Below are positions 9,851-11,679 of a stretch of DNA of 64,000 nucleotides, piece by piece. The stretch lies in the NCBI GenBank assembly GCA_020073585.1, contig JAIQEV010000012.1, positions 1-64,000 on the forward strand. Reading direction: 5' to 3'. Position 1 is the stretch's first letter. Each line of letters begins with the position of its first letter. Made by a program: the position numbers and the translations under genes. The DNA comes from Terriglobia bacterium. GTDB lineage: Bacteria; Acidobacteriota; Terriglobia; Acidiferrales; UBA7541. The notes under the pieces were generated by a model. That model saw nothing but the letters and a program-made list of their open reading frames with translations. It was not told the origin of the DNA and made no database searches.

Positions 9851-11107
9851 CTATTTGCCGCCCATAACCTCGCGCATTTTCGCCACGTCCAACTCGCCCT
9901 CCCACCGGCTGACCACCAGCGTCGCCACTCCGTTGCCGATGACGTTCGTCAAGGCGCGGCATTCGCTCATGAATTTGTCCACGCCCAGCAGCAGCGCCAG
10001 GGCCTGCACGGGTATTTCGGGAAAGACGCTGAGCACCGCCGCCACCTTCACGAATGCCCCGCCAGGCACCCCCGCGCCTCCCGTCGAGGCAATCATGGCG
10101 AAGAGCAGCACGCGCACCTCCTGCCCCAGCGAGAGATGGACGTTGGTGGCCTGCGCCAGGAAGAGCACCGCCAGCGTGATGTAGATATTCGCGCCGTCGG
10201 TATTGAAGCTGTAGCCCATCGGAAACACCAGCCCCGCAATCGAGCTCGGCGCGCCCAGGCGTTCCAGCTTCCGCAGCATGTCCGGGATCACGGTTTCCGA
10301 CGAGCTGGTGCCCAGCACGATCAGCAGCTCGTCCTTGATGTAGGCCAGAAAACGCAGGAGCGAAAAGCCCGCCAGGTATGCGATGGTCCCGAGAATGAGC
10401 AATACGAAGAGTGCGCTGGTGAGATAAAAAGTTCCGATCAGCTTGGCGAGATTGGAGAGCGCGGCGAGATCGTAACGCCCGACGGTGAAGGCCATGGCGC
10501 CAAATGCGCCGATGGGCGCCAGCTGCACGATCATGCGGATGATGCCGAAACACACTTTGCTGGCCACCCCGACCGCGCGCGTCACTCCGGCGCTGCTTTC
10601 TCCCAGGCGCGAAATGGCGAAGCCGCAGAGGATGGCCAGCAGCACGACCTGCAGAAAATCGTCGTGAATGAAGGCGTCCAGGAACGTCGCGGGAATGGTA
10701 CGCAGCAGTTGCCCGGCGAGCCCCGTATCCTTGGCGTGGCTGACGTACGCGGCCACGGATTTGGCGTCCAGTGCCGCCGGATTGATGTTCAATCCCCGGC
10801 CCGGCTGTCCCGCTTGCGCCACCACCATGCCGATGAGCAGCGCCGACACGGATACGATTTCGAAATAGACCAGCGTCTTCAAGCCCACGCGCCCGACCTT
10901 CTTCATGTCGGTCATGGACCCGATGCCCTGCACCAGGACGCAGAAGATCACCGGCCCGATCATCATTTTGATCAGCGCGATGAAACCGTCACCCAGCGGT
11001 TTGAGGGCTATGCCGGCTTTGGGGAAGAAATGCCCGGTGAAAATGCCCAGGGCAATCGCCACCAGGACCTGCACGTAGAGGTCTCTGTACCAGGGGCGGC
11101 GGGGCAC
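9851..11107 (-). CDS. Dicarboxylate/amino acid:cation symporter (DAACS family)
   Basis: 418 aa membrane transporter of the GltP/DctA family that couples uptake of glutamate or C4-dicarboxylates to Na+ or H+. Eight or so hydrophobic segments are visible. Family signatures are KMMIGPVIFCVLVQGIGSM near residue 55, the serine-rich reentrant loop LGTSSSETVIP, and the FNTDG / ASTGGAGVPGG motifs of the second hairpin and ligand site. The likely start is GTG, only 2 bp after the stop of the AhpD-like gene, so the two genes are translationally coupled. An open frame extends to 11299 but only covers the upstream gene. Confidence 0.92.
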   Translation of the reverse strand: MPRRPWYRDLYVQVLVAIALGIFTGHFFPKAGIALKPLGDGFIALIKMMIGPVIFCVLVQGIGSMTDMKKVGRVGLKTLVYFEIVSVSALLIGMVVAQAGQPGRGLNINPAALDAKSVAAYVSHAKDTGLAGQLLRTIPATFLDAFIHDDFLQVVLLAILCGFAISRLGESSAGVTRAVGVASKVCFGIIRMIVQLAPIGAFGAMAFTVGRYDLAALSNLAKLIGTFYLTSALFVLLILGTIAYLAGFSLLRFLAYIKDELLIVLGTSSSETVIPDMLRKLERLGAPSSIAGLVFPMGYSFNTDGANIYITLAVLFLAQATNVHLSLGQEVRVLLFAMIASTGGAGVPGGAFVKVAAVLSVFPEIPVQALALLLGVDKFMSECRALTNVIGNGVATLVVSRWEGELDVAKMREVMGGK

Positions 11108-11109
11108 GG

Positions 11110-11679
11110 TTATACTTTTTCGCTTCTTTTTTCGGCGAGAAATGCGGCCAGTTCCCCGGCTTGGGTCTGCAGCGTGCGCAGCCAGCGCTGCCCGCCGAAG
11201 ATGAATCCCGTCCAGTACCCGATCTCCACGATCTGCGGCTCGCTGAATTCGGCGTGCAGCTGCTGCCACATGGCGTCGTCCGCTCTCTCCGGAGCCCACA
11301 TGATGGCGTCGGCGTAACTCAACGCCAGTTTTTCGCGCGCCGTGAACCGCTCGGACTCCTCGTACTTATGCACTTCCGACATCCGGTCTTCTTTGTTCCG
11401 CGCACCCTGCGCGGATCCCTGGTTCATTCAATAATTGCAGGACATGCTGATGGCGATGTACGCCCGCAGCAGCTCCTTGAGCTCCCACTCCACCGTGCCC
11501 TTGTCTTTCTTGAACAGCATGTCGAAGGTCGTGGTGAACGAGCGCATCACGTCCGGCTGATGCGCGCGAATCGCCTGGTTCTCCGGTCCGGGCCGCCCGG
11601 CCTTTATCGCGTCCTCGAGCCACCGGCGCGCTTGCGGGTCGGCAATCGTCTCGGGAGCGACATAGCTGATGCGGGCCAT
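11110..11679 (-). CDS. AhpD-like (CMD family) protein, predicted CxxU selenoprotein with in-frame TGA
   Basis: Read through one in-frame TGA at 11428-11430 this is a 189-residue alkylhydroperoxidase/carboxymuconolactone-decarboxylase-like protein. Residues 1-83 match the N-terminal half of the family (ARISYV, RPGPENQAIRAHQPDV, ELKELLRAYIA), and residues 85-189 match the C-terminal half (FTAREKLALSYADAIMW, EIGYWTGFIFGGQRW). The TGA falls at residue 84 in Cys81-Asn-Tyr-TGA, the position of the second Cys of the redox CxxC motif, so selenocysteine is the natural reading. A SECIS-type hairpin follows 12 nt later. AAGGAG sits 6 nt before the ATG at 11679, whereas the ATG right after the TGA has no ribosome binding site. 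The 2-bp gap to the symporter GTG also argues that both halves are translated. AhpD-like CxxU proteins are a known selenoprotein class. The alternative is a nonsense mutation making a pseudogene. Confidence 0.8.
11397..11415 (-). promoter_or_regulatory. SECIS-like hairpin downstream of the in-frame TGA
   Basis: On the minus strand the sequence reads TCCGCGC, AGGGT, GCGCGGA: a perfect 7-bp stem with a 5-nt loop whose second to fourth bases are G. The stem begins 12 nt and the loop 19 nt after the TGA at 11428-11430, inside the coding frame. Bacterial SECIS elements recognised by SelB lie immediately 3' of the UGA codon, with the apical loop roughly 15-40 nt downstream and a conserved G early in the loop. 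This hairpin meets those conditions. Confidence 0.7.

Follow-up and report, generated by a model that had tools for sequence, protein, structure and literature searches.

The window, as the whole 64,000-nucleotide stretch of Terriglobia bacterium DNA analysed here is called, carries on its minus strand a gene (11679-11110) that very probably encodes one full-length AhpD-like selenoprotein, with an in-frame UGA decoded as selenocysteine (Sec) at residue 84 by means of a SECIS hairpin. The AhpD/CMD-like frame gives 189 amino acids when one UGA is read through. Translation with TGA as U shows that this UGA (11428-11430, minus strand) is the only internal one and lies at residue 84 in the context SCNYUMNQG, so that the CxxC-type motif of the protein reads Cys81-Asn-Tyr-Sec84; in the alignment of homologues the same column, the second CxxC position, holds UGA or Cys. 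A ribosome-binding site, AAGGAG (11691-11686, minus strand), can be read from the sequence with a gap of 6 nt to the ATG at 11679; direct inspection found none upstream of the ATG at 11427 that follows the UGA. Thus, what the preliminary description had claimed of the open frame, namely two halves in one frame, a lone TGA where CxxC has its second Cys and a strong ribosome site before the first half only, was confirmed. When the window was scanned for TGAs that join two codon-biased open frames, CxxU was found only here among those listed. The proposal of a single full-length protein with Sec at residue 84 is supported by the presence of sel genes, the conservation of the UGA, selection and the hairpin.

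Conservation of the UGA codon and the hairpin behind it

The UGA is found at the same codon in three genomes of the same genus (95, 83 and 78% identity) and in a further acidobacterial MAG (L074, 76%), which gives four acidobacterial orthologues at 76-95% identity. A search of genome contigs with the single protein gave zero matches, and a five-sequence profile gave 192 relatives. Scanning 84,980 species genomes with the profile led to 79 loci, among them L072 and L073, which repeat the 83% and 78% relatives. Of these 79 loci, 60 have UGA in the Sec84 column and the other 19 have Cys; neither another residue at this column nor a further in-frame stop was found. Orthologues at 60-67% identity, nearly all of them Betaproteobacteria by title, have UGA without exception (30/30), and a tree of 88 rows requires just three switches between Sec and Cys. 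An alignment of homologues at residue 84 had been suggested earlier as a check, and it gave Sec or Cys throughout. Close relatives with other stops or frameshifts, which had been named as evidence that would tell against a selenoprotein, were not found; they keep the UGA and show no second lesion.

The predicted bacterial SECIS hairpin (11397-11415, minus strand) is a perfect 7-bp stem with the loop AGGGU, written in DNA as TCCGCGC-AGGGT-GCGCGGA, and it begins 12 nt past the UGA; sequence and folding agree here with what had been described before. Its register is constant over 35 Sec genes (33 distinct sequences). Among the 33 distinct sequences, pairing-preserving double changes occur in 5 of 8 hairpin pairs. 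Double-changed cells numbered 12 as against 2.7 +/- 1.0 after shuffling, and none of 500 shuffles reached as high a count, a strong signal that is nevertheless not to be read as a probability because related rows inflate such counts. Most of the covariation signal is gone when the partner is shifted by 1-3 columns, and RNAalifold agrees with the pairing. The published model of the bacterial SECIS has a loop of 3-9 nt with G within its first two positions, a stem of 4-16 bp, a distance of 16-37 nt from UGA to loop and a minimum free energy of at most -7.5 kcal/mol (PMC13188914). The hairpin of the window, with the loop AGGGU, 7 bp, 19 nt from UGA to loop and -13.8 kcal/mol, fits this model. Taken from a single sequence, its folding energy does not stand out in this GC-rich DNA (z -1.2 to -2.0).

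Two readings without selenocysteine have to be weighed at this point. The gene could be a pseudogene, in which the UGA arose as a nonsense mutation and the part after it is decaying. There is indeed an internal stop codon, and the stretch after it evolves somewhat faster when the window is compared with two more distant relatives, as dN/dS is about 0.07 before the UGA and 0.20-0.25 after it. However, even these values are far below 1, and against the nearest relative the two flanks give 0.087 and 0.092; both flanks are under purifying selection, with dN/dS well below 1 against all three relatives. With the UGA kept in orthologues down to 60% identity and in other phyla, without a second lesion, and with a hairpin that covaries, a pseudogene is extremely improbable. 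It is just as hard to credit two separate proteins, the first stopping at the UGA and the second restarting at the next ATG by translational coupling. An ATG does follow the UGA immediately in the window, but it has no ribosome site and is replaced in orthologues by GCG, TCG or AGC, and therefore restart at this place is not the explanation; moreover, the two halves make one fold with the active site at their junction.

Selenocysteine machinery and the distribution of Sec and Cys forms

The Terriglobia genome (4.03 Mb, 96.7% complete) was searched for the genes of selenocysteine decoding. It has a tRNA-Sec gene with the anticodon TCA (66.4 bits, gathering score 47; found by ARAGORN also), SelB (359.7 bits, cut-off 242), SelA (555.5 bits, cut-off 268) and two SelD genes with an in-frame UGA in each. 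The search for selA, selB, selC and selD had been named beforehand as the place where the selenoprotein reading could fail; all four are present with scores over their cut-offs, and therefore this main test does not refute it. The occurrence of two UGA-bearing selD copies (L068 on G000:C56 and L069 on G000:C45) is unusual, and a mixture of strains in the assembly is possible.

The presence of SelB was compared between the two forms in 48 genomes reached through the loci. SelB scored over the cut-off in 25 of 29 Sec-form genomes and in 9 of 19 Cys-form genomes (Fisher p = 0.008, kinship ignored), where absences are soft because the genomes are mostly MAGs. The four Sec-form genomes in which SelB was not found are probably incomplete MAGs. 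Among relatives in the class, genomes with any UGA-bearing CMD gene tend to have selB as well, as expected, but the tendency is not strong (p = 0.085 in all genomes, p = 0.053 in the more complete ones). The nearest in-family relative outside the genus (G072, 40% identity) has the Cys form, and SelB was not found in its genome. The same genome, in which the search for selB found nothing, has a CMD gene with an in-frame UGA (G072:C345:1555-1794). Since its assembly of about 350 contigs is 90% complete, a contig may be missing or foreign. One MAG titled Acidimicrobiaceae contains a Cys form of the window subfamily beside a Sec form of a sister group (L106 and L113), and therefore Cys forms occur in Sec-decoding genomes too.

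It was observed that the genome carries three more genes of the CMD superfamily with a UGA at CxxU (L047 on G000:C24, L151 on G000:C30 and L152 on G000:C59), their motifs being CHYU, CYPU and CPFU. Judged from these sequences, the number of CMD-type selenoproteins made by the host is probably at least four. The sister Sec group (L108-L120, for example L115:5001-5555) has a short insertion before CHYU and shares several MAGs with the window subfamily (for example L086 with L115, and L085 with L118), and the proteins of the two groups may work together. Several lake and soil MAGs (L082, L090, L091, L094, L098, L100 and others) are titled 'Bordetella parapertussis' or 'Chitinophaga pinensis'; these titles are probably misnamed, as the MAGs group with unnamed Betaproteobacteria in the tree.

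Family, fold and probable chemistry

The protein scores just under the cut-off of PF02627 (22.1 bits against 23) and well under that of TIGR01926 (35.1 bits against 81.8). The best NCBIfam match of the protein and its relatives, extending over most of the length, is NF053654, 'YciW-related (seleno)protein' (GroundWater_YciW). It gives 48.8 bits for the window protein and 44.7-60.5 bits for the relatives where membership begins at 310, which places the window subfamily as a sister group of this family and not within it. As the relatives score as low as the window protein, no NCBIfam equivalog names the subfamily. The catalogued CxxU selenoproteins of the AhpD-like (COG2128/TIGR01926) and PF02627 types belong to the same superfamily, have Sec at the same second CxxC position and have a bacterial SECIS after the UGA, as the window gene does; unlike them, the window protein falls below the curated cut-offs of TIGR01926 and PF02627.

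An AlphaFold2 model made with 30 relatives reached a pLDDT of 94.5 and matches peroxidase-related structures of the AhpD core, among them 2prr, PA0269 and Bmp8. On this model the protein is a helical bundle of the AhpD/CMD (AhpD-core) type with a CxxC-type motif. In a 30-row alignment Glu69, Arg72, Cys81 and Sec/Cys84 are invariant and Gln87 is nearly so. The motif of true AhpD is Glu-X11-Cys-X2-Cys-X3-His, and its proton relay in M. tuberculosis consists of Glu118, Cys130, Cys133 and His137. The window protein shares with AhpD the fold and the spacing Glu-X11-Cys-X2-Cys/Sec, with the Glu 12 residues before the first Cys (Glu69, Cys81), whereas it has Sec where AhpD has its second Cys. At +4, where AhpD has its catalytic His, the window protein has Gly88, and no His stands at this column across the subfamily; counted from Sec, Gln occupies +3 and either Gly or Arg occupies +4. 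The architecture is therefore that of AhpD, but one defining feature of AhpD proper fails.

A mechanism can be proposed along these lines. The ribosome would start at the ATG at 11679 and meet the UGA, where the hairpin, acting as a bacterial SECIS, would recruit SelB with Sec-tRNA-Sec so that Sec is inserted at residue 84. For this decoding step the support is comparative. The product would fold into the predicted helical bundle with a Cys81-x-x-Sec84 pair. By analogy with AhpD chemistry, the selenol of Sec84 could attack an oxidised substrate, Cys81 could resolve the intermediate to leave a Cys-Sec bridge, and a cellular thiol reductant could reopen it. The most likely function is thus that of a thiol/selenol oxidoreductase. 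The preliminary description had spoken of redox or peroxide defence: the redox part is likely by what is known of AhpD, and the peroxide part amounts to guesswork, since no proton-relay histidine is present in the subfamily.

It could also be that the Sec protein uses its selenol for another reaction, for instance a reductive dehalogenation like that of the debrominase Bmp8 (6ohi/6ohj), in place of peroxide or disulfide redox. Bmp8, which is presumably tied to deiodinase chemistry, is one of the closest relatives of solved structure, in profile (E 1.5e-9) as in fold, with CxxC at the same position, and the replacement of the AhpD histidine points the same way. On the other hand, Bmp8 has Cys for Sec and retains a His after its CxxC, its identity to the window protein is just about 19% and other AhpD-core structures match equally well; halogen-related genes were not noticed near the window gene. 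Another selenol reaction of this sort is quite unlikely. A broader suggestion is that the loss of the AhpD histidine marks, in an unnamed and mostly Sec-containing CMD subfamily of at least six phyla, a selenol chemistry other than peroxide reduction, for example reductive dehalogenation or a step of carboxylate catabolism; this is speculative and rather unlikely.

Gene neighbourhood and significance of the subfamily

The AhpD-like gene is followed by a gene for a sodium:dicarboxylate symporter of the SDF family (9851-11107, minus strand; PF00375, E 1.5e-100), which starts with GTG at 11107, 2 nt past the TAA of the selenoprotein gene, so the close spacing reported earlier is correct. Neighbouring genes were clustered after filtering by codon bias. 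The symporter lies directly downstream in all five acidobacterial loci and is therefore the likely operon partner. Methylmalonyl-CoA mutase subunits lie upstream solely in the window and its nearest relative, and a link to this enzyme was rejected as not conserved; of the two neighbours stressed before, only the symporter stands. In 20 of 30 betaproteobacterial loci a gene for a TctC transporter receptor is no more than 300 bp away, which would fit in with a carboxylate theme; the link is weak because at least 149 TctC genes exist in each of three genomes counted. No ahpC was seen among the neighbours of the window gene. The tight operon with a dicarboxylate symporter faintly suggests a role that may be tied to the uptake or catabolism of organic acids.

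Selenoproteins of the AhpD-like and CMD-domain types with CxxU were described from the Sargasso Sea in 2005 (PMC1088965) and from genomes in 2006 (PMC1794560), and a 2026 review (PMC13188914) lists them, which bears out the earlier statement that they are a recognised class. A literature search did not find a description of the acidobacterial subfamily. The finding is ordinary in kind; what is new, to a mild degree, lies in the subfamily itself, in the prevalence of Sec among its members and in how widely it occurs. Its members were found in MAGs of Acidobacteriota, Pseudomonadota, Myxococcota, Chloroflexota, Armatimonadota and Actinomycetota. Such genes are easily misannotated, either as a truncated AhpD fragment with an orphan frame or as a pseudogene, and their recognition adds a well-supported, Sec-dominated subfamily that is as yet unnamed by curated NCBIfam models. 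With at least four CMD-type CxxU genes in one acidobacterium, soil Acidobacteriota would be a sensible place to learn what AhpD-like selenoproteins do.
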